Shown piece by piece: positions 3,272-36,584 of a stretch of DNA of 43,010 nucleotides. The notes beneath the pieces are model-generated. The model had not been told where the DNA came from. It made no database searches and saw only the letters and a list, made by a program, of their open reading frames with translations. Origin of the DNA: a virus; the IMG/VR virus record IMGVR_UViG_3300032116_000431, positions 1 through 43,010 of that record; one strand, 5' to 3'. How positions within the stretch are numbered: position 1 is the first letter of the stretch; each line of letters opens with the position of its first letter. Made by a program: the position numbers and the translations under genes.

Positions 3272-4777
3272 ATGAAGAAAGTCGCTTCTCTCTGTAGAGC
3301 TATCGCAGGAACTATTAATCAAAGCGACTTTGAGCGCTTCGAAGAGGAGTTCCGGCACCCTGAAATAAGAAGAATGATTGAAAAAAACGCATCAGTAGTA
3401 GAAGGTCTGCAGAATCTTACTGCTGAGCCGATCGTACCTTTTGGGCGTATGGCAAAAGTTGCCTCTTTGCGGTTTCGTCCCGGGATCGATGTAGTTCAGG
3501 TTCGTCCTTCTGGGTATGGTTACACCATCAAAGTATCGGCCGCTCCGGCAAATATGGCTCCGCAGGAGGCACAGGTCTCCGCACCGCAAGCACAGCAGGC
3601 GTTGCCGCCTGAAATGCTACAAGCCGCAGATCAGCAGGGCGCTGCCACCGTTACGGGTGTTCAAGCACAGCCCGATCCTATGGCGGAGCAGATGCTTCCG
3701 GTAAGTGCGTTTGGTATCTACAAGGTGACCAACGCTGAGACTGGAAAGCAAATGGTTGGTTATGTTATCCCCGGTCTTTTTGATCCTATTCAGGGTACTC
3801 AGACCTCAATGGCGCTGTTTACGAACGGCGCTTCATACTCAGTGCAGCCAGGCATCTCAGGCTCACTTGTAGGCGTGAACCACAACCTCCCGATTCCAGA
3901 GAATCCTGATATCCGCGGCCTTGGTGTCTTTGTAAAGACGAATGGCAAGGCCATCATGTGTACCGTGCCCTTCAACATCATCACCAAGGTGCAGGTGCAA
4001 GGAAACGGATACTTCGCTGCGCAAGATATGAACGGAACAGATTTACGAATCATCCCCTCTGAAGGTCTTCAGCGTCCTGTGGCGTCGTCGACAACCGACA
4101 TCGCCATTCCGGCTGATTTTAAGTTCATGCCACTTGAGAATCCGGTACAGCTGGCAGCCGGCAACGAGCTGATGAAGGCTGCGCAGGCGAACGCATATGA
4201 GACGATGGCCGAAATTCGGGCATGGGAGGGAGGTTGTCGGCTCAGTGGCCCGGTCTTCGAGAAGATCGGATCAGGAGAGCACTCTTGGGCAGACGGAGTG
4301 TTCTGGCTAGCTGCGGCTGGCATGCCTCAGAATCTCAGCGCTGCGTGTCTCGAGAAGGCTGCCTCAGATGGCAAGCCACTTCGGATGTTCAACCTTCGTC
4401 CGCTATCAACTCGCGAAGAGGCGTATGAGGGAGCGCTAAAAGAAGCCGCTGTGGACATGCTTGACACGGAGCTGCCCAAGCGCGTCAACCTGCTTAAGGA
4501 GATCTCTGCTATCACCTTCGACAAGAAGGCATCCGCGCTTGTGGATACAGCCTCAGTTGATGCTGTGCTGGCGTTGAACTTCCTCAATCCAGAGAACGTC
4601 GAGACCTTCATCGAGTTCCTTCCGCAGCTCGAGGAGGCGTCTGCCAAACTTGCGAGTGTCACACTTGCCGCACAGCTGGGACTTCAGAGCATTCCCAAGA
4701 CTGCTGCTGTGCGTGCGATGTTTGCCCTCGAGGACGTGATCACTGGGTTAAAGAGTCTCAAATCCTACCAGGTGTGA
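3272..4777 (+). CDS. Large virion-type protein rich in K-x-A-S motifs
   Basis: 501 aa, ATG with TGAGG upstream. Family not recognised. The protein has an N-terminal helical part, a Gln/Ala/Pro-rich linker (about residues 92-140), a strand-rich centre (about 145-290) and a helical C-terminal third. By eye there are eight K-x-A-[S/A/G] sites: KKVASL at the start, EKNAS, AKVAS, EKAAS, LKEAA, DKKAS, AKLAS and PKTAA. That density is far above what the terminase or sheath shows. The motif sites lie outside the strand-rich core, at both ends, which fits removal of terminal extensions during maturation (inference). It is not a recognisable portal. Confidence 0.6.
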   Translation: MKKVASLCRAIAGTINQSDFERFEEEFRHPEIRRMIEKNASVVEGLQNLTAEPIVPFGRMAKVASLRFRPGIDVVQVRPSGYGYTIKVSAAPANMAPQEAQVSAPQAQQALPPEMLQAADQQGAATVTGVQAQPDPMAEQMLPVSAFGIYKVTNAETGKQMVGYVIPGLFDPIQGTQTSMALFTNGASYSVQPGISGSLVGVNHNLPIPENPDIRGLGVFVKTNGKAIMCTVPFNIITKVQVQGNGYFAAQDMNGTDLRIIPSEGLQRPVASSTTDIAIPADFKFMPLENPVQLAAGNELMKAAQANAYETMAEIRAWEGGCRLSGPVFEKIGSGEHSWADGVFWLAAAGMPQNLSAACLEKAASDGKPLRMFNLRPLSTREEAYEGALKEAAVDMLDTELPKRVNLLKEISAITFDKKASALVDTASVDAVLALNFLNPENVETFIEFLPQLEEASAKLASVTLAAQLGLQSIPKTAAVRAMFALEDVITGLKSLKSYQV

Positions 4778-10398: not shown

Positions 10399-11460
10399 AT
10401 GTTTGGTGGGTCTATAACGAAGGAATATCTTCAGCAGATGGCACAAGCAGCCACTACTGATTTTCTTTCTAACGGGACGCCACTCACCGAGGCCGTTGTT
10501 AAGCAGGCCAGTGCTTGTGGGGCTAATCTCACTGCGGAGCACGTCCGTCGCATCTGCGAGATGACCTATCACGACGCCTACGAGCGGATGCACAAGCAAG
10601 CATCCAGTGCCGATCGGTACATCGTGTTTGATCCTCCAGATGCAGCTATTGCTGCGGAAGTTCTACAAGCTGAAAAGGTCGCTGCGGCCCCTAAGCGCAC
10701 ATCTTCTTTCGCTGGTGGGATTATGACAGAAAAGCACGCGTCTGCCGAAGTCCGAGCGCCTAAGTTTCGGCCAGCAAATGCGTTTGATCAGCTTGTAAAG
10801 CAAGCGTCGAACGACCACCTGTCTGAGTTCCAGGATGCGCAATCTCTGAGACGCCTGAAAAGCGTGCATGATGGAGTGAAGGAGGCTGCTACAGCTATCA
10901 AGGCTGATATCGAATCTCTGAATGGTGCTATCTTTACTACGCGACAGGAACTATCGAAAATCGCGTATGCCGAGTGTAAGAACGGTATTGCAGTCGAAGA
11001 TGTCTTACACGCGTGTTTTTCTGGAACCGACTGGAATCAGACGACAGAGGCCACTGCCTCAAAGATTGCCTCTGATCTTAGTGAGTTCCTGCTGAGAAAA
11101 GAGCAAAGAACGGCTGGCCTTCATCTCCAGAAAACAGCTTCGTTCGGGGATCTGAATCCTGACCATCCTCTTCCTGCGACCTTCTCGAAGCTGGCAGCTC
11201 TCGAAGAGAAACACATTCATCTCGAGATCGCGCTGGGTCAAATGAATGCAGATGCAGAGCGGGTTGGGCAGGTTCTCCGAGAGATTCTATTCTCCGAAAA
11301 GACTGCCGGTGCCGGTTCTACTATGCGATCAGCGGGTCGTATGATTAAGGATGTCTCGAAGAAATACCCCAAAGCCGCCATTGCTTTAGGTGCTGGAACA
11401 GCTCTCGGACTGGGGCTTACGGCTGCAAACAAACTCAAGAATCGTGGAGAGTCCCAATGA
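10399..11460 (+). CDS. Internal/scaffold-like virion protein with nine K-x-A-[SAG] sites
   Basis: 353 aa, ATG with AAGGA 7 bases upstream. Helical, Ala/Lys/Glu-rich, with nine K-x-A-[S/A/G] sites by eye (VKQAS, HKQAS, EKVAA, EKHAS, VKQAS, VKEAA, QKTAS, SKLAA, EKTAG) spread along its length, about one every 40 residues. It ends with a Gly/Ala hydrophobic helix (KAAIALGAGTALGLGLTAA). The composition fits a scaffold, core or injected internal protein that is chopped during maturation (inference), and the prohead protease is two genes downstream. First gene of the head module; overlaps the next gene by ATGA. Confidence 0.6.
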   Translation: MFGGSITKEYLQQMAQAATTDFLSNGTPLTEAVVKQASACGANLTAEHVRRICEMTYHDAYERMHKQASSADRYIVFDPPDAAIAAEVLQAEKVAAAPKRTSSFAGGIMTEKHASAEVRAPKFRPANAFDQLVKQASNDHLSEFQDAQSLRRLKSVHDGVKEAATAIKADIESLNGAIFTTRQELSKIAYAECKNGIAVEDVLHACFSGTDWNQTTEATASKIASDLSEFLLRKEQRTAGLHLQKTASFGDLNPDHPLPATFSKLAALEEKHIHLEIALGQMNADAERVGQVLREILFSEKTAGAGSTMRSAGRMIKDVSKKYPKAAIALGAGTALGLGLTAANKLKNRGESQ

Positions 11461-12008
11461 AGGTCCAGGTTCCTGCAGAGGCATATACTGCATTTGCTCG
11501 TGGCGAGATCTCTGAGTCCGAACTACTCGATCTTGAGAAACTTGCGTCGGATCTAAACAAGCAGGCGGGAATCAGCATCACTCCTGGGACAGCAGCAGGA
11601 TTAGCCGGACTAACAGTTGCGGCCCCGATGCTCGCATACGCAGGTGCACAGATTCCTCAAACTATTGAAGGCGGGCTTCAGGCAATTACCTTCAATCGGG
11701 ACTTGCGCAGAGTTGTCCAAGTAAATCCGCAATTGGGTAATCCTAGTGATCCCAATCTTCGTATGGCCTTTAAGACACTAAGAACTACAAATCCCGAATA
11801 TGCCGCAGACCCACTGATTGCAGGCACCATTCTGGACATGGTTATGACCAACCGTATGAATCCGGATGACCCGACTAGCGCTCCCAGATTTGATCCCGCG
11901 CTTCTTCAGTCGATTCAGGGTCGAAAGACCACCGCACGCGACGTTGCCACGGCAGAAGGCGCTAAGGCTTCTGTGGGCCCTGTGGCCAAGTCCCTCCTTG
12001 AGGGCTGA
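11457..12008 (+). CDS. Conserved-looking structural protein of the head module
   Basis: 183 aa. The N-terminus carries LEKLAS and NKQAG motif copies, followed by a Gly/Ala hydrophobic stretch (AAGLAGLTVAAPMLAYAGA, about residues 49-67). Residues about 110-160 contain LRTTNPEYAADPLIAGTI and PRFDPALLQSIQ, which I associate, from memory only, with a small protein common beside prohead protease genes in uncultured phages. It is coupled at both ends (ATGA in, TGATG out) to its neighbours, so it is made with the protease. Role unknown; a head assembly or internal protein is most likely. Confidence 0.6.
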   Translation: MKVQVPAEAYTAFARGEISESELLDLEKLASDLNKQAGISITPGTAAGLAGLTVAAPMLAYAGAQIPQTIEGGLQAITFNRDLRRVVQVNPQLGNPSDPNLRMAFKTLRTTNPEYAADPLIAGTILDMVMTNRMNPDDPTSAPRFDPALLQSIQGRKTTARDVATAEGAKASVGPVAKSLLEG

Positions 12009-13903
12009 TGGAAAAGTACTCGCTGTTTTCTGGTAGGGCAGACTCCGGAGCTCCACTCATTCATCGAGTGGAGCCCGGATCTTCCTATGGTCTTGGTGAG
12101 ACCGAAGGTCTTTCCAAGACAGCATCGGGGGAGCATCTTCCAGAAGTAATTGAACTTATTGAGTCAATCAGTGCACAGCCTGGTCGGTTGTATCTTGTAA
12201 ATTCGGCTTTGGGTGCAGGTGAATACGTAGGATTCAATCTGCGAGGGGACTGGTTTACAGAAGCAGGACTACGCCGCACTCCTCGTGGATTTGAACAAAT
12301 TCCTGTATGGGATATCGATGCTCGGAGAAGGGCTGCCAACGATACGGAAGCTCTGCCCCGATGGGGCTCTCTTACCTGGGGATATCCTACTTTCTACAAT
12401 GCGCACAGATTTAGACATCATATAAATAAAGATCCAAATAAGGCGTATGGATTTATTCTAGGAGCTTTCTGGGATGACCGCATGAAGCGAGTCATCTTGG
12501 TTTCTGAGCTCATCAAGGAGATGTGCGCTAAGCAGGGCGCTCTGGATCTCTATACTCGTATTGAGAATGGAGAATTTCCTGATTCTTCAATGGGCTCAAA
12601 GGTTCCGTATGACAGATGCTCTATATGTGATTTTCATGCCAGGACTCCTATGGAGTATTGCAAGCACGTCCAGCGCGGAGCCCCGCCTCCATATGGCATG
12701 AAAGCCATGCTCCCAGATGGGCGGGTTTGCGGCGTGTACAACGACTATCCGAGGTTCTTTGACGATTCCTTCGTATTTGTCGGTGCAGAAAGATCTGCAA
12801 AGGTAATGTCGAACGTTACTTCTATGATTTCTGGACAGAACGCATACAATCAGAATATCTATCCTTTTAATCCAGTTTCTATGAAGATCGCTTCTGCTCC
12901 TGAACAGAAGCCCGTGAAAACACAGATTCCTGATGTAGTTGTAGAAGAGCGTCTTACGCGAGTTTTAGGTATGATTCCCACTTCGAGTGGGCTTGAGCGC
13001 GAAGCTCTTCGCTTCTTCATGCAGGAGCGTATGGCAGAGGAGCGCTTGCTTACGGGATCACTATCTGCGACAGAGCTCGAGATGTGGAGAGACATCTCCA
13101 CAAGAACATTTCAGAAAAAATATGGAGTAGAGCCTAAACAAATCTCGCATCTAAAGCAGCTATTTAACGACCGAGCCAATGAGGCTTTAGGAGTTAAAAC
13201 CGCCTCATTCTCCAAGGTAGCAGAGATGCTGAAGAGGATCCCGGCACCGTCAGCATCTCAGATGAGCTTAGTTCGCAAGGAAGAGATGTGTCTTCCTGAA
13301 ATTCCAAAAGATATTCTCGATCGAATGGCAGAAAATCCTGGACCTAATCTCCGAGCTGCTGCGAGACTTGGCATCGTACTACGCCCGCGCGAGTTTCAGA
13401 GAGTTCTTCTAATACGTAAAGATCCAGATCTCGCAAATTCACTTTACGATTCAAACCAGGTGTTCGCTCCAAGTTCCATTCGTATGTCATCCTCACCGTT
13501 CGATGCCTCCTCGTATGTTCCTCAAGAGGCCATGGAGTCGATGATCTCCCTGTTGGCACCTCTTCTCGAGAAAAGATCCTTTGCCCCGTCAGCGATTCGT
13601 ATTCGAATGATTAAAGAAGGATCTGCAACACCAGTTCCTTCTCCCACACATATAGGGGGTTTGGAGGAGCTTTCAGATCTTTACAATGCGTATAGACTGG
13701 GTATCATCGATCGTAAACCAGATCTCTCCACGGTATCTATGCCCTCAGTATTCTCTACACGCATAGAAGACGACGCAAAACTTGCGGATGACTCTTCGGC
13801 TCTATCAAATATCCTTCTTCATGTTGCCTACTGGCCCGGTCTTACATTAGGATTGGGACAGCAGGCTGAGGGATCAGATCCCGAAGACGCCCTTCAACCC
13901 TAA
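12008..13903 (+). CDS. Prohead maturation protease (HK97-type) with Cys/His insertion
   Basis: 631 aa, start overlapping the previous stop (TGATG). The core, residues about 60-265, follows the HK97/U35 prohead-protease layout: an early strand with LGAGEYVGFNLRGDWF, the His segment RFRHHINKDPNKAYG (His137/138), strands DDRMKRVILVSEL, and the Ser segment IENGEFPDSSMGSKVPYD (Ser193/194), about 56 residues later. CSIC plus EYCKH (Cys204, Cys207, Cys218, His220) form a probable zinc site right after the catalytic Ser. FFDDSFVFVGAERSAKV closes the domain. About 360 C-terminal residues (LPEIPKDILDRMAENPG, IVLRPREFQRVLLIRK) have no assigned role. The protein itself has three K-x-A-S sites (residue 37 and two after 290), consistent with self-processing (inference). 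Confidence 0.75.
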   Translation: MEKYSLFSGRADSGAPLIHRVEPGSSYGLGETEGLSKTASGEHLPEVIELIESISAQPGRLYLVNSALGAGEYVGFNLRGDWFTEAGLRRTPRGFEQIPVWDIDARRRAANDTEALPRWGSLTWGYPTFYNAHRFRHHINKDPNKAYGFILGAFWDDRMKRVILVSELIKEMCAKQGALDLYTRIENGEFPDSSMGSKVPYDRCSICDFHARTPMEYCKHVQRGAPPPYGMKAMLPDGRVCGVYNDYPRFFDDSFVFVGAERSAKVMSNVTSMISGQNAYNQNIYPFNPVSMKIASAPEQKPVKTQIPDVVVEERLTRVLGMIPTSSGLEREALRFFMQERMAEERLLTGSLSATELEMWRDISTRTFQKKYGVEPKQISHLKQLFNDRANEALGVKTASFSKVAEMLKRIPAPSASQMSLVRKEEMCLPEIPKDILDRMAENPGPNLRAAARLGIVLRPREFQRVLLIRKDPDLANSLYDSNQVFAPSSIRMSSSPFDASSYVPQEAMESMISLLAPLLEKRSFAPSAIRIRMIKEGSATPVPSPTHIGGLEELSDLYNAYRLGIIDRKPDLSTVSMPSVFSTRIEDDAKLADDSSALSNILLHVAYWPGLTLGLGQQAEGSDPEDALQP

Positions 13904-13921
13904 ACTCAAGTGAGAACACAA

Positions 13922-15262
13922 ATGTCACTGCTATCGGAGCTTGAAGCACGGGGCGTCACCGCCGAAGATTTAGAAAAGGCTGCCGCAGTTCGTTTGTTCG
14001 AAAAGGCTGCTGCAGCTGAGGGTGTCGATCTCAACGATCTGGACGAGAGCCGGGTCGAAGAACTGTTCAACCACTTCGTTTCCACTTCCACCGAGAAAGA
14101 GGCTTCCGCCATGAATGACAAGATTGTAGAGCTCTTCGAGAAGACCGCTTCTGCTGAGGGTATCGACCTGGACGATATGAGCGACGAGGATCTTGCTGCT
14201 CTTTACAACCATTACATCGAGAACGTTCTTCCTGAGCAGATTGCGGCTGAGGAGGAGCTAGAGAAGGATGCCTCCGACGAGGAGGCCGTTTTTGAGCTCT
14301 TCGAGAAGACCGCTTCTGCCGAGGGCATCGATCTCGATGATATGAGCGACGAGGATCTTGTTGCGCTGTTTAGTGACTATGTAGAGAACGTGCTCCCCCT
14401 CCAGCTCGAGGACGCGGACAGCATTGAGGACCTGGATAAGGTTGCTGATGCCGACGAGAAGTTGGCTGAAGCCGAGATTCTTGGTCGGCATATGGCTCGC
14501 GCCTATGTTGATGAAGTAGAGAAGGTCGGTGCCGCGAAAAAGGAGGGCCCATCTCTTCGTGATCGGGCTCAGAGATTTGGCCGCAGCTATATGTCCGCGC
14601 TGAAGGGCGAGGAGTTCCGCGAGGGCAGAAAGACCTACGGCGGTAGGATGGCCCGAGCTGAGCGGCGTCTGGGGCTCGACAAGAGAATGGGCCGTGCGTC
14701 CGCCAGCAACGTCGGAAAATCAAAGATGCTCCGCGGCGGCCTAAAGACCGTGGGCGCGTACGCTATTCCGGCTGCAGTAGTAGCCGGTGGTACGGCTGCT
14801 GCGATGCGTAAGGAAGGAAGTTTCACTGAGGAGGAGGCAGAGGCTCTGCTGCTCATCGACGCTGAGTTTGGTGAGGATGTCGCCGAGGATGTTGCTGAGA
14901 AGGTTGCTGCTGCCAGCCTGAAGAAGCGCGTGCTTTCTCGTGTTTCCAGTGCGCGAGAGAGATTAGCAGACCTCACCTACAAGAAGAAGAAGGGTCTCGC
15001 CCGGGCCGGTGAGCTTCTGAGCGGCAGTCGCCTTGCCCGCATGCGGAAGTACACAGGTCAGAAGAAGGGCGTACTTGCTGCCGCTCGCGGTAGAGGCCCT
15101 GACAACCGCGAGGCGCGTAGAGTGCTTGCAGCGAGAGGTGCTGCTGGTGGTGCAGCCGCACTGGCAGCCGGCGGCGGCGCGTACGCCATGCACAAGAAGG
15201 GCTCCGGTGACGTTGAGGATCTTGCCATCGAGATGCTTGACTTCGCTGGATACGACGTCTGA
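13922..15262 (+). CDS. Acidic tandem-repeat protein, candidate scaffold
   Basis: 446 aa from ATG 13922 (GTGAG upstream); a GTG at 13910 lacks a ribosome site. The N-terminal 165 residues hold three degenerate copies of an acidic unit: LFEKAAAAEGVDLNDLD, then LFEKTASAEGIDLDDMS twice, each continuing into a helical HYIENVLP-like end. The middle and C-terminus are basic (many Arg/Lys, two Gly/Ala hydrophobic segments). Seven K-x-A-[SAG] sites lie mainly at unit boundaries. Placed after the protease and before the capsid gene, this is where scaffold genes sit. An acidic repeat domain joined by cleavable linkers to a DNA-binding-like basic tail fits a scaffold or core protein (inference). A strong hairpin follows. 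Confidence 0.6.
   Translation: MSLLSELEARGVTAEDLEKAAAVRLFEKAAAAEGVDLNDLDESRVEELFNHFVSTSTEKEASAMNDKIVELFEKTASAEGIDLDDMSDEDLAALYNHYIENVLPEQIAAEEELEKDASDEEAVFELFEKTASAEGIDLDDMSDEDLVALFSDYVENVLPLQLEDADSIEDLDKVADADEKLAEAEILGRHMARAYVDEVEKVGAAKKEGPSLRDRAQRFGRSYMSALKGEEFREGRKTYGGRMARAERRLGLDKRMGRASASNVGKSKMLRGGLKTVGAYAIPAAVVAGGTAAAMRKEGSFTEEEAEALLLIDAEFGEDVAEDVAEKVAAASLKKRVLSRVSSARERLADLTYKKKKGLARAGELLSGSRLARMRKYTGQKKGVLAAARGRGPDNREARRVLAARGAAGGAAALAAGGGAYAMHKKGSGDVEDLAIEMLDFAGYDV
14129..14391 (+). repeat. Two near-identical coding repeats in the acidic protein
   Basis: A unit starting GAGCTCTTCGAGAAGACC at 14129 recurs at 14294 with only scattered, mostly synonymous changes over roughly 100 bases. 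A third, more diverged copy lies at about 13994. Spacing is about 165 bases between the two good copies. They arose by in-frame duplication and encode the LFEKTASAEGIDL modules. Confidence 0.8.
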
Positions 15263-15268
15263 TGACAC

Positions 15269-15311
15269 ACACGGCGCCATCTTCTGTTCTTGCCGGGAGA
15301 TGGCGCCGTGT
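15269..15311 (+). terminator. Hairpin after the acidic protein; also covers the next gene's start
   Basis: ACACGGCGCCATCT (15269-15282) and AGATGGCGCCGTGT (15298-15311) pair perfectly over 14 bp around a 15-base loop, 7 bases after the stop at 15262. The 3' tract is short (TTTG). The next gene's best GTG start (15308) and part of its GGGAG ribosome site lie in the right arm, so the hairpin may act as a terminator, a translational lock, or both. Confidence 0.6.
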
Positions 15312-15589
15312 TTGATCTCACTTGGATCTTTTTTGTCGATGAGCTGACAAAGATAGCATCTAATAGAGCATCGGATACTCTTCGTGTTCCGGGTACCGCA
15401 AATGGCACGCCCAGAGGACTAGCGAAGCCTGCCCTCGCAAGTGGACAAAATCTCGCAAAGTTTCAAGCAGCCGGACCCTCTAAAGCGCTGGTGACCGGCT
15501 CATCTCCGACAGCACACAATCCCACTTCCACACTCTCGGCAGGAACTACAGGTTTTGTAGGGATGCCGGCACCCCCTCCCGTCGAGTAG
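15308..15589 (+). CDS. Small protein with N-terminal FFVDELTKIAS tag
   Basis: 93 aa from GTG 15308 (GGGAG 8 bases upstream); a TTG at 15290 in the hairpin loop is the alternative start. The N-terminus WIFFVDELTKIASN matches a tag seen in other small genes here (28681, 38431). The rest is Pro/Ser/Thr/Gly-rich and disordered. It is likely a virion-associated peptide. The start codon sits in the 14-bp hairpin, so translation may need the ribosome or polymerase coming from upstream to open it. Confidence 0.5.
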   Translation: MFDLTWIFFVDELTKIASNRASDTLRVPGTANGTPRGLAKPALASGQNLAKFQAAGPSKALVTGSSPTAHNPTSTLSAGTTGFVGMPAPPPVE

Positions 15590-15598
15590 AGGCATACG

Positions 15599-17257
15599 AT
15601 GAGCAACTACAGAAGCATGATCGACCAGGCCCTTGAGGCCGCTCGTGCTCGTGCTCACACTCCCGTTGAGACTGTAAAAGCCGCCTCTGCCGAAGATGCA
15701 CTCATCAAGGAGGCAAACGATCTCGCAAACGCACTCGAGTTCGTTTCCCTTAGCGCTTCGGGCGGTGATAACGCTGCTGGGTTTCGACAGGAGATGATCC
15801 GCGACTTCTACAAGAGCGCCACTAGTCCAGCACAGGGACCTACAGCCGCCTCTGGCGTACAGGGAATTGCTCCCGCTGCGGGTAAGAAAAAGCTCGCCCC
15901 TGTTGGACTGGTAGGAGGCAATAGCCCTGTGCAGGGATCTACTACTCCCGAGGCTCGCGACGGCCAGAAGACTCTCCTTGAGTCGTTTAAGCAGGGCAGT
16001 GGTCAGTCCCTCTACGACATGCTTATGAGCAATAAGACTGCTGGCGCAGGCGGTCCCGCAGAGCACGACTCAGAGACGATGGCCGGCGTCGGTACAGCGA
16101 ATGAGAACTCAACGTACCGCAAGACGCTTCATACAAACGAAGGTCCTGTCAACGCCAACCGCCGTGATCTAAAGAAGAATACGCGCGCTCGGCTTGCGGA
16201 GGTCTTTGGACACACCAACGATACCCTTGGGGATGCAACCGCAGCGCAAATCTTCCCACAGGCCGCATCTCGCGGAAACCTCAAGATTGCGTCCGCGTCA
16301 CGCACGCGGAGGTTACTTCAGGTAAATAAAGAAGCAGGGATGGAGAAAGAGGCTATCCTAGGTGCTGTGCGTAATCTATTCCGAGGTGGCGCTAACGCAG
16401 CCGCCGGCGCAGCTCCCAAACTTAAGAACTTTAAGAAAGCCCCCAGTGCAGCCCCGAATACACCCCCTTATTATCGCCCAACTCCAGGCCCAACTCCAGG
16501 CCCAACTCCAGGCCCAACTCCCAAGTCGGGTAGGTATCAGAAATACCAAAAAGCTAGACAAGCTGCCGCTGCAGGTCCGTCATTTCGCGAGAGAATACGA
16601 AACTTTATTGGAACACCCGAAGAGGTTGCTAAAAAACGGCAAGCTATAACGGATGATATCGGACGCGTTCGCCAAGTGACCGACCTTGTTACCGACACAT
16701 TGCCTAACGCGGTGAGAGGCATCGGTGACGCTGGACAGCGCTTCCTTAATTTCGTCAGAAGAACGCCGCAGCCCGCTGTACAAGAGGGCATGAGTGACAC
16801 TACCAAGGCTCTTCTCGGAATTGGAGGAGCCACTGCTGCTGGTGGTCTCGGCTTGATGGCACTCAAGGGGATGTCAAGCGACGGCCGTGAGGCAACAGCG
16901 AGTGCGTTTCCGCTGACTCTCAGCCTTCTTGAAAAACGCGCTGACCAGCTCCACGCGGGTCTTGGTGGACTTGCGTTTGGCCCCCTCGGTGCCGGCGTAG
17001 GAGCGGATAACGATAGAGGTTTTCGTGCTATGGGCGGCTCTCTGGTCGGTGGTACGGCTGGTGGCATGTTGGGAGCCTTACCCGGCCTGGCCCTAAATGC
17101 GCCAGGGGCAGCCTCTTTAGGCGGCGCTTTAGGTGGAATGCTCGGAAGCGGCCTTGGCGGATATATGGGTCACGGATCTATTTCTGACCGTGAGAAGCTT
17201 CTCGTACTAAAGCAAAAAGCAGAGCTTGAAGCTGCCCGCCAGCGGGGAGAAATCTGA
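15599..17257 (+). CDS. Large disordered/glycine-rich virion protein
   Basis: 552 aa, ATG with AGAGG 6 bases upstream. The N-terminus (MSNYRSMIDQALEAARARA) is helical and leads into a VKAASAEDALIKEA motif segment. Long Gly/Ser/Pro linkers follow, with a PTPG repeat near residues 294-308, a basic helical middle (FRERIRNFIGTPEEVAKKR) and two large Gly/Ala hydrophobic regions: about 404-420 and 455-525. Four K-x-A-[SAG] sites occur (VKAAS, NKTAG, LKIAS, NKEAG). Such proteins are typical of internal or ejected virion proteins that may meet the host membrane (inference). Family not named. Confidence 0.6.
   Translation: MSNYRSMIDQALEAARARAHTPVETVKAASAEDALIKEANDLANALEFVSLSASGGDNAAGFRQEMIRDFYKSATSPAQGPTAASGVQGIAPAAGKKKLAPVGLVGGNSPVQGSTTPEARDGQKTLLESFKQGSGQSLYDMLMSNKTAGAGGPAEHDSETMAGVGTANENSTYRKTLHTNEGPVNANRRDLKKNTRARLAEVFGHTNDTLGDATAAQIFPQAASRGNLKIASASRTRRLLQVNKEAGMEKEAILGAVRNLFRGGANAAAGAAPKLKNFKKAPSAAPNTPPYYRPTPGPTPGPTPGPTPKSGRYQKYQKARQAAAAGPSFRERIRNFIGTPEEVAKKRQAITDDIGRVRQVTDLVTDTLPNAVRGIGDAGQRFLNFVRRTPQPAVQEGMSDTTKALLGIGGATAAGGLGLMALKGMSSDGREATASAFPLTLSLLEKRADQLHAGLGGLAFGPLGAGVGADNDRGFRAMGGSLVGGTAGGMLGALPGLALNAPGAASLGGALGGMLGSGLGGYMGHGSISDREKLLVLKQKAELEAARQRGEI
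16477..16522 (+). repeat. 12-bp tandem repeat encoding PTPG
   Basis: Three exact copies of CCCAACTCCAGG, plus a partial fourth, run in frame and encode Pro-Thr-Pro-Gly units. Exact identity at the DNA level suggests recent slippage-type expansion and variable copy number between related phages. Confidence 0.9.
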
Positions 17258-17472
17258 TGAGATCCCACTCACTGGCGGAGTACTCTGTACTCTTTGATGA
17301 GATTGATTCAGGTCGCTTTGGCGATCATGTCAAAGAAGCGCTATATGGAGTTTGCGAAGGCATGGCTTCTTCAGTACAATCGCACTACGAGAAGAAGGCA
17401 TCGTCTCCAACTTCCATGACAGAAGAAGATGCGCGGCAAGCACGCCTGAATCAACTTCTACGAAAGTTCTAA
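17257..17472 (+). CDS. Small helical protein
   Basis: 71 aa, ATG overlapping the upstream stop (ATGA). The start, SLAEYSVLFDEIDSGRFGDHVKEALYG, is helical, and a YEKKASSP motif copy lies near residue 45. Charged and soluble. It may be a minor head protein or a small chaperone. No family recognised. Confidence 0.5.
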   Translation: MRSHSLAEYSVLFDEIDSGRFGDHVKEALYGVCEGMASSVQSHYEKKASSPTSMTEEDARQARLNQLLRKF

Positions 17473-17487
17473 TTGCGAGGACTGCAA

Positions 17488-17853
17488 ATGCTAAAGATCG
17501 GAAGTGCAGAACTGGCAGTAGTCTCCGCAAGGAGCGCTGCCACCATTCGCTCGCTGACTGAAAAGGTCGCGAGCCTGGAGCAGGAGAACGTCCAGCTCCG
17601 CACAAAGCTTGCCTCGATTGCGCGCGACCACAAGGTTGCTGAGATTGCGCGTGAGATGGAGGACAAGGGTCTGAACGCCCACATGACGTTCGAAGAGAAG
17701 ATCGCGCACATTCGGGGCCATGCGCATCTTGAGAACGTACAAGAGGCGGTCAAGATGGCGAGTGCGGGCAATGTCCGCCTTGCCGATGTTTCGAATCAGC
17801 CGGGGTCTTCAGCCCTGGATGCCCTCACCTCCTTCTGCCTTACTGGCGAATAA
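17488..17853 (+). CDS. Small coiled-coil protein before the capsid genes
   Basis: 121 aa from ATG 17488, preceded by GAGGA at 6 bases; the TTG at 17473 is less likely. Residues about 18-50 form a leucine-heptad coiled coil (IRSLTEKVASLEQENVQLR). Three motif copies occur (EKVAS, TKLAS, VKMAS), so a short protein could be cut into three or four pieces. Position directly before the decoration and capsid genes fits a scaffold or assembly helper (inference). Confidence 0.6.
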   Translation: MLKIGSAELAVVSARSAATIRSLTEKVASLEQENVQLRTKLASIARDHKVAEIAREMEDKGLNAHMTFEEKIAHIRGHAHLENVQEAVKMASAGNVRLADVSNQPGSSALDALTSFCLTGE

Positions 17854-17865
17854 CTGGAGATCCCT

Positions 17866-18456
17866 ATGGCTGGACAGTTCGTCACGATTCTGAATCCTGG
17901 GTACTCGACCCTCTACACGCGCGATCTTGCTTACCAGGCAAGTGCAAATGTTGAGGGCAGCGCCACTATGAACGTATTCAACCCGGATGCTACCCATCCT
18001 CTCCAGGAGGGTGAGTGGCTGCAGCTGTCGGGTGGTAAGTTCACACGCAGCCTCGCATCTGGCGCAGTTACGGGCTCTGGCTCAGCTTCTGCTCTTGCGA
18101 TTGTAGATGATGCACAGAACGCAGCTGCGTCGCGTCCCTGCTTCATGTACTTCCAGGAGCGGGGCCGCTACGATGCCCAGTTCACCCGGAAGGCACACTG
18201 CATCACAGGTCCTTCAGGATTTGAGTTCCGGACAAAGATGATTGTCTGCGACTCAGGCGATGAGGGTGAGCGGGTGTACGTGTACGTCTGCGAGGATGCC
18301 AGCGGGCGCCTTGTCTCTGCGCTGGTTTCCGTCTCTGTAGCTAATGGGGTTTCTTCGGCTGCAGTTCCCACTACCGGGTCTTGGTACGCCGGTACTATCC
18401 TTCAGGTACACGGTACCAACGACGCCACCGTGCTGTTCCAGCCCGGTTTCCGCTAA
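17866..18456 (+). CDS. Putative capsid decoration protein
   Basis: 196 aa, ATG with GGAG 6 bases upstream. Beta-rich, Ser/Gly/Ala/Val-rich (AIVDDAQNAAASRPCFMYFQ, TKMIVCDSGDEGERVYVYV, a hydrophobic GTILQVHGTNDATVLFQ end). It lies immediately upstream of the major capsid gene, the usual site of small decoration or head-stabilising proteins. No motif copies of K-x-A-S type are seen, as expected for a folded shell protein. Assignment rests on position and fold impression, not homology. Confidence 0.45.
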   Translation: MAGQFVTILNPGYSTLYTRDLAYQASANVEGSATMNVFNPDATHPLQEGEWLQLSGGKFTRSLASGAVTGSGSASALAIVDDAQNAAASRPCFMYFQERGRYDAQFTRKAHCITGPSGFEFRTKMIVCDSGDEGERVYVYVCEDASGRLVSALVSVSVANGVSSAAVPTTGSWYAGTILQVHGTNDATVLFQPGFR

Positions 18457-18486
18457 TCAATCCCACAGTCCCGATAGGAGAACACC

Positions 18487-19620
18487 ATGGATTACTCTGC
18501 TGAAATGGTGAATTCGGGCTTCATCGAGCGCCTCGAGACTGAGGGACCGACGAAGACCGCTGCCGCCTCACTGAACTACATCAAGGACCGCCTGCGCGAG
18601 TCCAGCTTCACCGACATGATCGTTCCGAACGAGCGTGTTGTGCGTGGCGACCTCCAGCGCAGCACTGAGCACGACACCCTCGTGAAGATCGTCGATATCG
18701 AGCCCGGTAGCCGGGCGATGTCGATCAACTTCCGCGGGCAGCCCACTGCTCAGTACGTGAATGGCAAGCGGTATGCCATCGGCTTCTACACCATCTCGTC
18801 CCTCAAGTTCGAGATCGTGGAGCAGGAGCTTATGGCCTACGAGATGCCAATCACCCGTATCATTGAGGAGAACAGCCTCAAGGATATGGTTGAGGTGAAG
18901 GACCGCGAGTTCCTGAACCACGTCGAGTCCTGCGTCAATGCGATGCAGGCCGAGGGCAACAGCGGTTCTTCCGCGTTCTCGGTAATCGGCGGTCAGGTCA
19001 CGATCTCGAAGATCAAGGGTGTGCTGGCTCAGCAGTCGGGCGGCAATGCCACTGACTACACGACCTACGCCATCCAGCGTCCCGATATCGTCAACATCAA
19101 GAAGCTGCTCAAGCGGCAGATCACTGTGGGTGGTGAGACCATCCGCGCTGGTCGCCTGCGTCCGGCTCTGATGCTGATGACCGAGACCGATGCGGACGAC
19201 TTCGATCAGTGGACCCATGAGGACTACGGTGATCGTCTTCAGAGCGAGACCGCTCTTGATGGCTACACCTACAACAAGGTCCTGGGTCTGCGGATCATCC
19301 GCACGATCAAGAACGACATCCTGCGTGAGGGCAACGTCTACGTCTTCACCTCGCCCGAGTTCTTCGGCCGCAACTACACCCTGAACGATGTGAAGTTCTA
19401 CATCGACAAGGTTGCGAACCGGATCTTCTGGCAGGCGTGGATGGACGTCGGCATGGGCTTCGGCAACATCGCTGCGGTGGTGAAGCTCGAGCTCTACCCG
19501 GGCGATGCTTCGAACACGGCTGCCAACAGCTCCGTGATCCCGGTTGAGGAGAGCGACATCGGCGCCCTGAACAACAAGGTTGCCGACGGCCTCACCTTCC
19601 CGAGCATCAACGTCTTCTGA
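18487..19620 (+). CDS. Major capsid protein
   Basis: 377 aa, ATG with AGGAG 6 bases upstream, G/C-biased third positions and a terminator directly after: the signature of a highly expressed gene. The N-terminus (about 35 residues) is helical and contains PTKTAAAS at residues 21-28, a candidate cleavage site. The rest suits a HK97 fold, with a long spine-like helix region (LKFEIVEQELMAYEMPITRIIEE) and a C-terminal VKFYIDKVANRIFWQAWMDVGMGFGNIAAVVKLEL that resembles the P-domain/A-domain end of contractile-tail phage capsids. It forms the icosahedral shell and is probably processed by the protease at 12008. Specific family was not checked. Confidence 0.8.
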   Translation: MDYSAEMVNSGFIERLETEGPTKTAAASLNYIKDRLRESSFTDMIVPNERVVRGDLQRSTEHDTLVKIVDIEPGSRAMSINFRGQPTAQYVNGKRYAIGFYTISSLKFEIVEQELMAYEMPITRIIEENSLKDMVEVKDREFLNHVESCVNAMQAEGNSGSSAFSVIGGQVTISKIKGVLAQQSGGNATDYTTYAIQRPDIVNIKKLLKRQITVGGETIRAGRLRPALMLMTETDADDFDQWTHEDYGDRLQSETALDGYTYNKVLGLRIIRTIKNDILREGNVYVFTSPEFFGRNYTLNDVKFYIDKVANRIFWQAWMDVGMGFGNIAAVVKLELYPGDASNTAANSSVIPVEESDIGALNNKVADGLTFPSINVF

Positions 19621-19640
19621 TCGAAGCGTTCGCTGTTCCT

Positions 19641-19674
19641 AAGCCCCGGGCCGAGTTATCGGGCCGGGGCTTTT
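19641..19674 (+). terminator. Rho-independent terminator after the capsid gene
   Basis: AAGCCCCGGGCCGA (19641-19654) pairs with TCGGGCCGGGGCTT (19659-19672) with one mismatch around a GTTA loop, followed by TTTT. Partial readthrough would set capsid-to-tail ratios. Confidence 0.85.
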
Positions 19675-19694
19675 AACTTAAAAAGGAGATGACT

Positions 19695-20222
19695 GTGAAG
19701 ATCGTCATCCAGAACTCTGTTAGAGATCCTTCGACTCGAGAGCGCCGTCGTGAGCATGTGGCGATGGTGACGCCTTCTCCTATGATTGGCGGCGTCCACC
19801 TCGCTCCCAGAAGAAGCCGCAGCGCGGATACCCAACAGCTATCGAATCACGATCTGCAGGTCATTGCAGATATGATCAAGTGTGGAGTACTCAGAGTCTT
19901 CCAGGCCTCTCCGTATGTGGAGCTGTCAGAAGGCTTTTTCCGTCCAGCAGCTCCGCCCGCTGTAGCTGTAGCTCCAGTAGAACCAGAGGTGAAGGCGTCA
20001 GAGCCCGAAAGTGTGGAGCCTGTAGCTGCTCTAGAGCCGGAAGAGCCGGAGGTAGTTGCAGAGCCCGTAGCAGTTGCCGCTGATGACGATGCCCGCAGGG
20101 AGGAGCTGATGTCGCTCAAGAATGCCGAGCTGCGTGAACTTCTAAGCAACGCAGGCGGTGGTAGCGGTACAGGCCTGTCGAAGGCTCAGCTGGTTGACGC
20201 CATCCTCGAGAGGTCGACATGA
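19695..20222 (+). CDS. Head-completion-region protein with C-terminal SAP/HeH-like domain
   Basis: 175 aa from GTG 19695; the AAGGAG site abuts the ATG at 19689 but is 6 bases from this GTG. N-terminal domain (MKIVIQNSVRDPSTRERR, about 75 residues) is followed by a long Ala/Pro/Glu/Val linker (about 85-130). The last 40 residues (LMSLKNAELRELLSNAGGG, then LSKAQLVDAILE) match the pattern of SAP/HeH-type DNA-binding helical domains. First gene after the capsid terminator. It could tether DNA or a partner at the head-neck region. Function inferred. Confidence 0.55.
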   Translation: MKIVIQNSVRDPSTRERRREHVAMVTPSPMIGGVHLAPRRSRSADTQQLSNHDLQVIADMIKCGVLRVFQASPYVELSEGFFRPAAPPAVAVAPVEPEVKASEPESVEPVAALEPEEPEVVAEPVAVAADDDARREELMSLKNAELRELLSNAGGGSGTGLSKAQLVDAILERST

Positions 20223-20689
20223 TCCGGGTCCATAACATCAGCGACCGTCCGAATTCTCCTTCTCTCCCGCGCGCGATCGCAGTCGGATCCGTCCTTCTGC
20301 GGCCGGGTAAGTTTGTAGAGGTTCCCGAGGAACACATCACACCCTCGCTGCGCAAACTGCACGGCTCACACATCTGGATCGGAGCAGTACCCGCAGCGAA
20401 GTTCATGTCTACGAGCAAGAGCGCTCTTCGGGCACTGAAGACCGACGTATCGCCCATGTCGCAAGAAGAGGTGCGTGCGTATCTCTCGACTTTAGAGAGG
20501 GACGAGCTGCTGCATCTATGCGAGCAGGTGTCCCCGGCGCTCACATTTGAGCGCGCGCCGGGTAAGGCGATGTTGACCATCCTCCTGTCTCGCGCGATCT
20601 TCAGTGAGGGCGCTGTGCTGAACCCAGAGTCCTTCTTCTGGCTTCGACGCTGGACAAAACACGGGTCCGAGTTTGAGGAGCGTGAGTAA
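20219..20689 (+). CDS. Unknown protein in the connector region
   Basis: 156 aa, ATG overlapping the upstream stop (ATGA). The N-terminal part (IRVHNISDRPNSPSLPR, then GSVLLRPGKFVEVP) looks like a small beta domain with a turn-rich PGKFVEV strand. The C-terminal half is helical (SQEEVRAYLSTLERDELLHL). The N-terminus has a resemblance in style to the gene just upstream. Its position suggests a head-tail connector or neck protein. No family recognised. Confidence 0.5.
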   Translation: MIRVHNISDRPNSPSLPRAIAVGSVLLRPGKFVEVPEEHITPSLRKLHGSHIWIGAVPAAKFMSTSKSALRALKTDVSPMSQEEVRAYLSTLERDELLHLCEQVSPALTFERAPGKAMLTILLSRAIFSEGAVLNPESFFWLRRWTKHGSEFEERE

Positions 20690-21189
20690 TGTCCTTTGAG
20701 TCCACAACAGTCATCCCGTCCGCCAGCAAGCGGATGAATGAAATCGTGGCGATGATTCGCCTCTTCCTGCGCGACTTCCCGGAGCTGAACCGGCTGATCG
20801 CTGGAGAAGAGACGAGCGATCGAATGATTGCATGGGCTGTTGTGGACATCATTGCCGATTACAATGGAACTCCTCCGTTCATCGGAAATGCAAGTATCCA
20901 GAATTTTCCTAACTTAAGCATGCTTAAAGATGGGGCAGTTAGCCAGATTTTAGAGTCCGTAGCTATCCTTCAGACTCGAAATCAGATGCAGTACTCTGAT
21001 GGTGGTATCTCTGTCTCCGTTTCAGATAAAGCACCCATGCTCATTCAGTTCGCTCAGATGTTTAGAAACAGATACGAGCAGCAGAAAATTCGTACAAAGT
21101 CATCTCTAAATGTAGAGTACGCATTTGAGGGCGGAGGTGTAGAGTCCGAATACTTCGTCATTAATGGTGTTTACTTCTCCAACTTCTGA
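20689..21189 (+). CDS. Putative head-tail adaptor/connector
   Basis: 166 aa, TAATG overlap with the previous gene. Helical N-terminal two-thirds (MNEIVAMIRLFLRDFPELNRLI, SDRMIAWAVVDIIADYNGTPPF) resemble the helical-bundle adaptor proteins that follow capsid genes in many tailed phages. The C-terminal part is strand-like (VEYAFEGGGVESEYFVINGVYF). Base composition becomes more AT-rich from about 20880. Connector role inferred from fold impression and order. Confidence 0.45.
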   Translation: MSFESTTVIPSASKRMNEIVAMIRLFLRDFPELNRLIAGEETSDRMIAWAVVDIIADYNGTPPFIGNASIQNFPNLSMLKDGAVSQILESVAILQTRNQMQYSDGGISVSVSDKAPMLIQFAQMFRNRYEQQKIRTKSSLNVEYAFEGGGVESEYFVINGVYFSNF

Positions 21190-21196
21190 GGTATCT

Positions 21197-21718
21197 GTGG
21201 AAAATCTATTCAAGAATCCTCATAGTGAAGTTCCAGACGAGCTCTGGAAGGTAGCCTCGCCATTTGAGAGGCAGATGGCTGCTGTGGAGTACTGGGCTGA
21301 GTTACGCGGAGTTGAAAAGATTGCTGCAAAAAGTACAGTCAAGAAACGTATTATTGATTTTTTAGCAGATAAGAATACACCTGATCTCCTCTCTGCCGGT
21401 GCTGGCGCTGGTATTGGTGCAGGCTTAAACCTGTACTCGACAAAAAAGTTTCCGCAAAGCGAAGAGCTTGAAGTCGAAAAGGGTAAATTCACTAAAGAGC
21501 CATCAAGGGAGCAATTAGATCTTAGGGCGGATCGAGCTTCATTGGATGAGCGTAAGGCACGCGGAAATGCTGGGCCGACAACTGAAAAAATTCAGGATAT
21601 TAAAGAAAGATTAGCTTCTATGAGGGCCGAAAATAGGCTATTAAGCACCCTTCTAATGACAGCAGGCACCGGCGCACTGGGCTACGGCCTTTCCAGGCGC
21701 GTACGAGCAATGACGTGA
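21197..21718 (+). CDS. Small tagged, partly hydrophobic protein
   Basis: 173 aa from GTG 21197 (TGAGG 6 bases upstream). The N-terminal VPDELWKVASPFERQ is an instance of the DELxKxA tag, followed by a second copy, VEKIAAKST. A Gly/Ala hydrophobic region (LLSAGAGAGIGAGLNL, about 65-80), a charged coiled section and a hydrophobic C-terminal helix (LLSTLLMTAGTGALGYGLS) follow. Same architecture as other small virion-type proteins here. It overlaps the next gene by GTGA. Confidence 0.55.
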   Translation: MENLFKNPHSEVPDELWKVASPFERQMAAVEYWAELRGVEKIAAKSTVKKRIIDFLADKNTPDLLSAGAGAGIGAGLNLYSTKKFPQSEELEVEKGKFTKEPSREQLDLRADRASLDERKARGNAGPTTEKIQDIKERLASMRAENRLLSTLLMTAGTGALGYGLSRRVRAMT

Positions 21719-23752: not shown

Positions 23753-26700
23753 ATGGCAAGTGAAAACCGCCCCGGCGTCATCGTAGTTCAGGAGCTCCGC
23801 GAGACTCCTGCTGCAGTTGCCACGCCCACGCTGAACCCCGTGGTTGTTGCTCCGTGCTACCAGATCATCCGGGCTGTGGATGCCTCCGGGTCTATCAACT
23901 CCGATGCGGAGTACACGACCCAGCGCTACACACAGGAGTCTCTGACGATCACGCAGGCAGAGTTTCCTGACCCGCGCGATAACATCGATGAGATCAACAT
24001 CGATGAGACCCAGGTCGGTGCTCGCCTCTTCTACGCCGGTGCCCTGACTACGCTTCCGCGGGGCAGCCATGGCAGCACAGGTTCCGCGTTCCTGGCTGCT
24101 GCAAACTTCGCTACTCGGGCCACTGTTGTATTCAACTCAGGTAGCTCGACCTTCGCATTTGGTCCTAGCACGCAGCTGCTGTCTATCAAGGCAAACAGCG
24201 CCAATAATCTCAATCCTTCGGTAGTTGCCTTCACAGGCACTATGACAGCTGCTGAAGTAGCTGCATCTCTTGCCGCCGTTCCAGGTATTGTCGCTTCAGT
24301 AGTTAGCGATACTGTCGTAGTCAAGAGCCGTACCTTCGGCGCTGCGTCTTCTCTGTACCTGACTGGCAGCGCGCTTCCGGTTCTTACTGCGGTGATGCTC
24401 ACTCCACTCGTAGCATCATCAACGTATAGACTTGAGGGCTCGGGTTTCAGAGGTCAGGATGACCTCGACGGAGACCTGACTACGCCATGGATTGAGTTTC
24501 ATGTCGGCAGCTACACTGTAGGCGGAGTTGCTACCCCGATTGCTGCTCCGTTTGCCCTCGAGGACAAGGACGGCGCCACGGCGACTCCTGCTGCGATGAC
24601 CTTCACTGGTTCAGGAGCGTCGGTTCCCCTCAAGGCGGCAACTGCTACCACTCCTGGAGATGAGTTCTGGGCTGACGGAACTCGCGTGAGTGAGGCATCT
24701 GTGACCGCCGTTGAGGAGGCCCGCTTTAAGCTGGGTATCCTCGACGCAACTCGGTCTACCTTCGACGCGGACGGTAACCTCGTCTCCGCTATCTACTCGA
24801 CGGTAGAGGTGAACACGCCCTCAAGCAGCGTTCCGTTTGCTCCGGTTTACGCGTACTTCATCGCGAACAACCTGGTCTGGGGCTCGGTCACTCCTGCTCC
24901 AGAGGCCGCGGAGATCACAGGCATCGATACGAATGCCCTCGCTGCGCAGCCTGCACAGCTAGTGGGGACCGCTTTCGATCCCACCGAGATCACATCACTT
25001 GCGGGAGGCACACTGACCTTCCGTATTGTTGAGGATGGGGTCACCCTTGATGACGTGACTCACACCTTTACGTCTTCGGCAACGAGCCTCAGCGCAGCTC
25101 TGACTGCTCTGAATGCCGATGCGAATCTGTCGGCGCTCACGTTCGCCACTGGAGACGACGGCTCCGATAAGATTCTGGTTGTTAAGACTATAAAGAACGG
25201 TGCTGATCAGAGTGTCACGTTCCTCGGAACTGCCTCTACCAGCGTAGGTGCTTCATTCGGTCTCACTTCCGGTGATACTGCTACGGGAGTTGATGTTGAG
25301 TTCGCAGAGGCCGCATCTCTCCAGTCTGACGCTGCCGATCTGGGTGCAGCATCAGGTAATCTCATTGTCAGTGTTACCGTCACTATCGGAGATGTAACTT
25401 ACGAGTGGGATCTTCCCGAAGTAACCAGCTACACAACTGCGACTGCGCTGGCCCAGGCCCTTGCAAGTGGGGCAAGTGCTGTCGGAGGTAAGTACCCTGT
25501 TTACTTCAAGAATGATTCTGCCCTTCCGCATCTTCTGAATCTAAGTGCCACTGGAGCAGATTCCGCGGCTCGGATTACTTTTGAACTTACTCGAGGCGGG
25601 GATGGTATCGATCTAGCGCTGACCTCAGATAATGACACTGTTATCGAATTCTCGACGGCTTTATCAGACACCGATGCTGGTGCTGATCTCCTCAAAGGCA
25701 CTCGTCTCGAGTTCACCCTGGACAGCAATCCGCACGTCTACGAAGTTGACTTCACCAGTAACTCGCTCCGGGAGGCAGTTGATGCCATCAACGAGGCTGT
25801 CGGCGGCGCAGTAGACATCGCGAGCGAGGATGGTCTGACTCTTGTGATGACCAGCGCGTTCTCTGGCGCGGCATCTGCTGTCAATCTTGATGACTCGAGC
25901 CCTGCTTACAGTGTGCTGTTCGATACTGACAGCGCTGCGGGTTCCGGTAGGCCGAATCCCAGCTTCTACATCGATGGCGAAGGCACTGCGCACATCGGAG
26001 CACATGCACTTCGCAACCGCAGCACAGGCCTACCCCTCGACCTGAGTTCAGGCGGGGCTCGGGTTTATCTCGATTATGTCGGTCTGCGGCTGGATGTCAC
26101 CGCAGCAGCGTCCAGCCCATCGCTCCTGACCTTCGACGACGTGGCGACGATGGATGCGGCAATCGGGCCGATCTCCCTGGAGAACCCGCTTGCGCTCGCC
26201 TGCTTCCTCATGCTGCAGAACACCCCGACACAGGCTGTGTCGGCCCTGGGCATCGAGGCTGTGAACGACGCAGCTCCAATGGGGACGACGACAGCGCACC
26301 TCAATGCGCTCAACTACCTCGAGAGCAAGGATGTCTATGGCATCGCGCCGATGACGGATGATCCTTTCGTCCAGCAGCTCTACTCGGCGCACGTGGAGAG
26401 CATGTCCACGCCTGAGCAGCGTGGTGAGCGCATCTGCTTCCTCTGGCAGGGCGTTCCCACTCGCGCACAGGACACGTCCATCCTGGCTGGATCGGATGCT
26501 GAGGTAAACGGTACAGCCAACAGCATCACGCTGGGTTCAACTCCGATTGAGGGTCTTGCCGCGCTGGGTCTGGATCCTTCGGAGCTGAGCCTTGACGATA
26601 ATGTCTACCTCGAGCTGGTGGTTGTCCAGCTCGGAGAGACCAGTGTCTTCAAGTTCTCGGTCTCCCAGGCAAACGGCACTGCGCTGATCCTTAGAAGCTC

Positions 26701-34751: not shown

Positions 34752-34801
34752 GTATTTTCAGTAACAATTATCTTACCCGCAAAGCCATAGGAGGCATGGG
34801 T

Positions 34802-35802: not shown

Positions 35803-36174
35803 TTAATTCACGCTTCTATACAGTGATCCAATTCCATGTTTAAAGGAACTCCTCAGACGCTCGTATCCAAGACCTCTGTTCTCAAGTGCGGATGCTTTTT
35901 GAATACGATTACGCATCCCACCCGGACCCGTTAAGGCAGCTTGAGCCTGTTCCCTAAGATCCCCCGAAGCTCTTTCTGCTCGATCCTTAAGTCGCCAAAG
36001 TTGATTCTGTGTTTGATCTTGAGCAGTGGTCCTTAGTGAACTTGATGGGAGTGTGTTGATATTTTTAATTCTATTAGAGATTGCTCTTTCAACAAAATTT
36101 GGACTCAGCGCGGATTTTTCCATCCAAAGTGGATGATCAGAAAGAAGCAGGTCATAAGCAGCGAGTTTGTTCAC
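35803..36174 (-). CDS. Small tagged protein (AYDLLLSDHPLW type)
   Basis: 123 aa, GTG start (GGGAG 7 bases upstream). N-terminus MNKLAAYDLLLSDHPLWMEK is nearly the same as that of 36237-36584 (MDKIAAYEMLLAEHPLW), which shows a shared N-terminal module. The remainder is helical and polar, with little resemblance to the partner beyond the tag. It probably belongs to the virion-associated set. Function unknown. Confidence 0.6.
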   Translation of the reverse strand: MNKLAAYDLLLSDHPLWMEKSALSPNFVERAISNRIKNINTLPSSSLRTTAQDQTQNQLWRLKDRAERASGDLREQAQAALTGPGGMRNRIQKASALENRGLGYERLRSSFKHGIGSLYRSVN

Positions 36175-36236: not shown

Positions 36237-36584
36237 TTACATACCTGGCGGCATCGCTTGATTTTTCAGAAACTGTCCAAAAGGCGTCTGGGACATTCTG
36301 TTTAATCCTTGGTAGGCATCCACCATTCCCTGGCCTACTCGTTTGTTCATGTCATATTTAAATCCCCTTAGTCGTTGTGAGATTGTAGGAGGCCTAGTCA
36401 TTGGCTTAAGCGCCGCTGCCTCGAAGGGGGAACGAAATGGTTTGATCATACTCTTAATTCCCGTCCCCACTTGCTGTAAGCCTTGCCCAAATTGCTTAAA
36501 TCCCAGTATTGCAACCTTCTCATGGTCTTCCGTCCACAATGGATGCTCTGCTAGGAGCATCTCGTACGCAGCAATCTTATCCAT
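36237..36584 (-). CDS. Small tagged protein, sister of the preceding gene
   Basis: 115 aa, ATG with AGGAG 6 bases upstream. N-terminal MDKIAAYEMLLAEHPLW followed by HEKVAILGF, then a helical, basic, Gly/Gln-rich tail (FGQGLQQVGTGIKSMIKPF). Two adjacent genes share this tag but diverge after it. I associate such AYxxLLxxHPLW starts with small genes in uncultured phages (from memory only). Confidence 0.6.
   Translation of the reverse strand: MDKIAAYEMLLAEHPLWTEDHEKVAILGFKQFGQGLQQVGTGIKSMIKPFRSPFEAAALKPMTRPPTISQRLRGFKYDMNKRVGQGMVDAYQGLNRMSQTPFGQFLKNQAMPPGM

Follow-up and report, generated by a model that had tools for sequence, protein, structure and literature searches.

The window analysed here is the whole of a 43,010-base virus record, whose genes were translated and the tetrapeptide K-x-A-[SAG] counted in each. 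A gene for a 631-residue head-maturation (prohead) protease (12008-13903, + strand; core about residues 41-247) sits between the terminase gene at 7441 and the major capsid protein gene at 18487, and the same cluster is present in phages D69 and Arash. The match of this protein to the head maturation protease family phrog_18299 is weak on its own (E=0.0019); its relatives match the family clearly (D69 6.6e-7, Arash 2.1e-6, phage G 2.6e-19, E3 8e-16). A tblastn search with the window protease gave 34% identity to D69 and Arash and 31% over 194 aa to gp19 of phage G. A Pfam search matched no protease family, a PDB sequence search returned no match, and no sequence match to herpes proteases was found. 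With a pTM of 0.38, the AlphaFold model is too weak for a match to a herpes/HK97-type protease fold; a Foldseek search returned no hit at E<=0.001. The window enzyme is classed as a divergent caudovirus head-maturation protease, a kind already known.

Two elements of the protease core, both nearly invariant in 21 homologues, are candidates for the catalytic residues: His137-His138 (12416-12421) and Ser194 within an S-M-G (12587-12589). The candidate histidine is also kept in the aligned proteases of phages G, E3, Myrna and KoPa5. Inteins favour active sites, and in two relatives (L018 and L036) an intein is inserted directly after S-M-G, which supports Ser194 as the catalytic serine. Protease genes with an in-frame intein at this position that starts with CFPAG and ends with VHN lie at L018:2660-5797, L019:3159-6296 and L036:4216-6925; the intein sequences of L018 and L036 differ. 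Directly after the candidate serine, alignments reveal a zinc-finger-like C-x2-C-x10-C-x-H (12617-12667) that recurs across the protease clade, with G, Myrna, E3, KoPa5 and Alexandra among its carriers. The protease of another relative, L027, has lost most of these cysteines.

The protease itself carries the tetrapeptide three times. One KTAS lies ahead of the core (residues 37-40, 12116-12127; K kept in 0.96 and A in 0.96 of homologues), a KIAS lies behind it (residues 293-296, 12884-12895; K 0.72, A 0.85), and a second KTAS lies between C-terminal helical parts (residues 397-400, 13196-13207; K 0.81). All three fall in low-confidence segments of the AlphaFold model (28-41, 247-304 and 397-406) that connect its ordered parts. 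The window phage, D69, Arash and G all have a K-x-A-[SAG] ahead of the core. A second one lies behind it in the window phage, D69 and G, the equivalent position in Arash being K-V-A-N. Sites on both sides of the core are what would be expected of an enzyme that processes itself.

Other motif-bearing genes, again on the + strand, surround the protease gene. Upstream are head proteins with ten sites (10399-11460, which matches an Arash protein with seven sites at E 8e-4) and two sites (11457-12008). Directly after the protease comes an acidic repeat protein with seven sites (13910-15262), a putative scaffold or core protein; the protein in its place has ten sites in D69 and six in Arash. It is followed by a small head protein with a single N-terminal KIAS (15290-15589), a head protein with four sites (15599-17257), a small head protein with one KKAS (17257-17472), whose K and A are both conserved at 1.00, and, ahead of the capsid genes, a coiled-coil protein with three sites (17473-17853). 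This last protein, a candidate scaffold, has a weak match to T4_CASP (E 0.01) and counterparts with three sites in D69 and five in Arash. A C-terminal stretch resembling D-x-L-x-x-F-x-L, a possible capsid-binding terminus for a scaffold, recurs in both counterparts. Beyond the capsid gene, a protein at 21164-21718 has two N-terminal sites. Outside the head cluster, a protein with eight sites (3272-4777, + strand) is a predicted substrate; no homologue of it occurs among the relative loci that were fetched. Several small proteins (15290, 28681, 35803 and 36237) have one copy near the N-terminus. Two of these are neighbours on the opposite strand (35803-36174 and 36237-36584, both -) and have a common N-terminal stretch, [D/N]-K-[L/I]-A-A-Y-[D/E]-x-L-L-x-x-H-P-L-W, possibly a packaging propeptide or possibly a sign that the two genes are paralogues.

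In total, the window proteins contain 56 K-x-A-[SAG] tetrapeptides against 18.3 expected (z 9.3) when each protein is shuffled 300 times, and the maximum of the 300 shuffles was 31. The initial annotation, which counted by eye, had put the total at about 47. That total was too low, although its per-gene counts were close: nine instead of ten in 10399-11460, with the recount returning the same figures for 3272-4777 (eight), 13910-15262 (seven), 15599-17257 (four), and 12008-13903 and 17473-17853 (three each), as well as for the single copy near the N-terminus of the capsid protein (KTAA at residue 23). It had proposed a comparison with composition-matched shuffles, which the motif passes, and had warned that Lys/Ala-rich proteins raise the chance rate; 56 against 18.3 does not bear out that concern. 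K-x-A followed by a residue other than S, A or G shows no excess in the shuffles (48 observed, 49 expected), and neither the reversed A-x-K-[SAG] nor R-x-A-[SAG] or E-x-A-[SAG] is enriched in the window proteins. When the window was tested for every spaced triplet with no motif preset, K.AS came out on top (33 against 4.9). The excess is concentrated in the head cluster (10399-21718), with 34 copies against 7.0 expected (observed/expected 4.9), as opposed to two copies against 4.4 (0.45) in 14 tail, packaging and enzyme-type proteins. The initial annotation had seen essentially no copies in the sheath, terminase, topoisomerase, ATPase and VWA proteins; the recount gives one in the topoisomerase-like protein at 39034 and none in the others. 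The look-alikes in the ParB-like protein at 34796 (one) and the HNH protein at 40916 (two), noted earlier, were counted again. The shuffle controls and the contrast between head and tail or enzyme proteins together indicate that Lys/Ala richness does not explain the motif.

When patterns of the form P3-x-P1|small were ranked in the window, K.A|[SAG] took first place. No pattern with Glu at P1 was among the top-ranked ones, and a Glu-based cutting rule as in T4 was rejected on that ground. T4 gp21 cuts at (L/I)-x-E, and the same ranking of T4 head genes, used as a positive control, put h-x-E and L-x-E first. The phiKZ rule, a second positive control, was not recovered by this ranking; the method is therefore not universal.

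The motif sites are also conserved in a way that separates their three positions. Alignments of the window's head proteins with non-redundant homologues cover 34 sites, at which K was kept at 0.75 and A at 0.79; K and A elsewhere in those proteins reached 0.40 and 0.48 (p 6e-8 for K and 1e-8 for A). The x position was kept at only 0.34. The extended pattern at these sites is [L/M/F]-E-K-[T/V/E/Q]-A-[S/A/G]-[A/V], and Pro and Gly are depleted at x. The best reading of this pattern is a predicted cut consensus of [L/M/F]-E-K-[T/V/E/Q]-A|[S/A/G], with P3 occupied by Lys (Arg in some actinophages), P1 by Ala and P1' by a small residue.

The placement of the cut after Ala draws on the major capsid protein (18487-19620, + strand; phrog_2522 major head protein). 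Its K-x-A is kept in every relative among the viral contigs, down to 38% identity, and the residue that follows it varies. In phage G, the capsid protein has 282 residues, of which 255 are left after processing, as determined by N-terminal sequencing (Hua et al. 2017, PMC5646251 Table 1). It follows that the phage G protein is cut after Ala27, in the context E-G-R-V-A-L-A|Q-A-M; the calculated mass of residues 28-282 is 28.17 kDa, in agreement with the 28.2 kDa given in PMC5646251. HHalign relates the window capsid family to phage G-type capsid proteins with a probability of 98% (E 1.8e-13) and pairs A25-L26-A27|Q28 of phage G with K23-T24-A25|A26 of the window protein (18553-18564, + strand), the predicted maturation cut. 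The pairing shifts by one residue if Arash is the lead sequence of the profile. P3 of the phage G site is Ala, not Lys. Measured P1 Ala is confined to the phage G capsid protein, and Ala|[SAG] in the window is predicted from the motif. The pairing indicates that P1 is Ala and P3 is Lys. A cut after Lys, in the T4-like register L-x-K|, is disfavoured, given that the phage G cut follows Ala and that the residue next to K is variable rather than small. The model of the window capsid protein (pLDDT 50) is too poor to place the site relative to a domain border.

A search of viral contigs with the capsid protein found 36 loci, 38-100% identical to it. Among cultured phages, Vibrio phage D69 and Salmonella phage Arash are related to the window phage, as is Bacillus phage G by way of the protease. 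Co-variation of motif and protease in related genomes, proposed earlier as a check, is indeed observed. K-x-A-[SAG] is in excess in D69 (34 observed, 12.7 expected), Arash (37 and 15.3) and G (23 and 6.0), and it ranks first among P3-x-P1|small patterns in all three. In 12 divergent relatives, where 75-182 such patterns were ranked in each for the proteins encoded on the capsid gene's head side, it was first in 11 and second in the twelfth. The observed/expected ratio in the head cluster versus the rest of the genome is 4.3 versus 0.93 in D69, 5.1 versus 0.94 in Arash and 3.7 versus 1.06 in G. An exception outside the head cluster is a 44%-identical pair, D69 170872-171723 with six sites and Arash 174466-175335 with five, which is likely a further processed head protein. 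Actinophages with homologous proteases have an excess of R-x-A-[SAG] instead (E3, 15 against 6.4; Phrappuccino, 23 against 9.5; Myrna, 20 against 10.8), and capsid proteins of this group carry K-L-A-[H/S/N] in the N-terminal region. Among phages with more distantly related proteases, BcepSaruman, Alexandra and a Moorella phage showed no K-x-A, R-x-A or clear alternative code. A weak excess of E-x-A-[SAG] was seen in head-region proteins of Pseudomonas phage KoPa-5 (L046; 14 against 5.5), which may reflect a different specificity of its related protease.

Taken together, these comparisons make it very probable that K-x-A-[SAG] is the cleavage signal of the prohead protease encoded at 12008-13903. 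The initial annotation had left the choice between protease specificity and virion targeting open. Specificity is favoured because sites flank the protease core, because the code accompanies the protease family in Arash, D69 and G and becomes R-x-A in some actinophages, and because the sole measured cut in a homologous capsid protein, that of phage G, aligns with the window K-x-A. Under the proposed mechanism, the protease would be packed with scaffold or core proteins during head assembly and would activate itself by cutting at K-x-A-S on both sides of its core. The active enzyme would then cut the capsid protein at K23-T24-A25|A26, which frees it of an N-terminal propeptide of 25 residues, and trim other head proteins, and the core proteins at 10399, 13910, 15599 and 17473 would be cut at many sites and leave the head or be ejected. 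That the 12008-13903 enzyme does the cutting, which bond is cut in proteins other than the capsid protein, and what becomes of the fragments are inferred; in multi-site proteins some sites may stay uncut.

The motif could instead act as an address, with K-x-A-S docking proteins into the prohead through scaffold, capsid or portal while itself staying uncut. This would account for its near confinement to head proteins and for the single N-terminal-proximal copies in the small proteins at 15290, 28681, 35803 and 36237. It is nevertheless improbable, since the measured phage G capsid cut falls at the aligned site, sites lie on either side of the protease core, and up to ten copies per protein suit fragmentation more than docking. 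A variant in which packaging and cutting are coupled, with the N-terminal copies marking the end of a short propeptide that targets the capsid, like those of T4 internal proteins, is a tentative possibility, and it is compatible with the cleavage-signal reading, as both can hold together. Precedents exist in the targeting sequences of T4 and the short propeptides of SPN3US (PMC5694885), and the single N-terminal sites in small proteins agree with such a role, as does the common stretch beginning [D/N]-K-[L/I]-A-A-Y in two of them, although that stretch could reflect paralogy of the two genes. Lastly, Lys/Ala/Glu-rich helical proteins might yield the tetrapeptide by chance or through heptad repetition, and some carrier proteins are indeed rich in K, A and E. 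The motif, however, far exceeds per-protein shuffles without any excess of the reversed, other-follower or R and E variants, and K and A are kept while x drifts; an origin in chance or composition is thus rejected by the shuffles, the reversed motif and the conservation, and we regard it as extremely improbable.

The predicted signal has partial parallels in well-studied systems. As gp21 does in T4, a single protease would process numerous head proteins by recognising a short motif of P3-x-P1|small layout; the P1 residue in T4 is Glu rather than the Ala predicted here, and T4 gp21 does not have the C-x2-C...C-x-H motif. Herpesvirus assemblin cuts at (V/L/I)-x-A|S, with Ala at P1 and Ser at P1' as predicted for the window motif; unlike that motif, it is not known to have Lys at P3. 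T4-type prohead proteases resemble assemblin (UL26), a serine protease, in structural elements and catalytic residues (PMC5694885), and inside the capsid assemblin cleaves both itself and the scaffold (PMC8537868). In phiKZ and SPN3US, the proteases gp175 and gp245 (MEROPS S80) carry out extensive processing of head and ejected proteins, with several motifs per propeptide and auto-cleavage (PMC10052503, PMC5694885). The SPN3US motif is A-x-E|S (PMC10052503), which has the same P3-x-P1|small spacing as the T4 and window motifs; cleavage in phiKZ and SPN3US follows Glu, in contrast to the Ala at P1 and Lys at P3 predicted here. Bacillus phage G has a homologous gp19 protease and gp27 capsid protein and the same excess of K-x-A-[SAG] in head genes, and differs in having Ala at P3 of its own capsid site. 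The text of PMC5646251, as searched, states no cleavage motif for phage G. A literature search whose coverage included few subscription journals found no paper that names a K-x-A rule, and as far as that search shows, a rule of Ala at P1 and Lys at P3 is new.

Only for a few model phages has the rule by which a capsid protease cuts been worked out, and in the T4- and phiKZ-type giants the known cuts all follow Glu. It seems somewhat more probable than otherwise that a class of prohead proteases with Ala at P1 and a basic residue at P3 spans the uncultured group, Arash, D69, phage G and some actinophages, with a code that can be read from the genome. If so, the processed internal proteome of large phages (core proteins, ejected proteins and N-terminal packaging peptides) would be predictable, and the protease tree could be used to trace how P3 changed from Lys to Arg. 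The motif-bearing phages form a large, mostly uncultured group. In them the motif would predict which proteins are processed inside the capsid, and the rule would assign processing sites and a probable location inside the head to many unknown proteins of large phages. The rule would also offer a testable case of a viral protease and dozens of substrate sites changing specificity together. Trypsin-only proteomics could miss many K-x-A cuts; trypsin alone is poorly suited because K lies two residues ahead of the predicted cut.

A scan of genome contigs gave one match, an Acidobacteriota MAG contig with similar K-x-A sites. The sheath-like protein of the window (23753-27475) has 1240 aa, compared with about 700 aa for the D69 and Arash sheaths, whose matches cover about residues 749-894 and 1041-1239.
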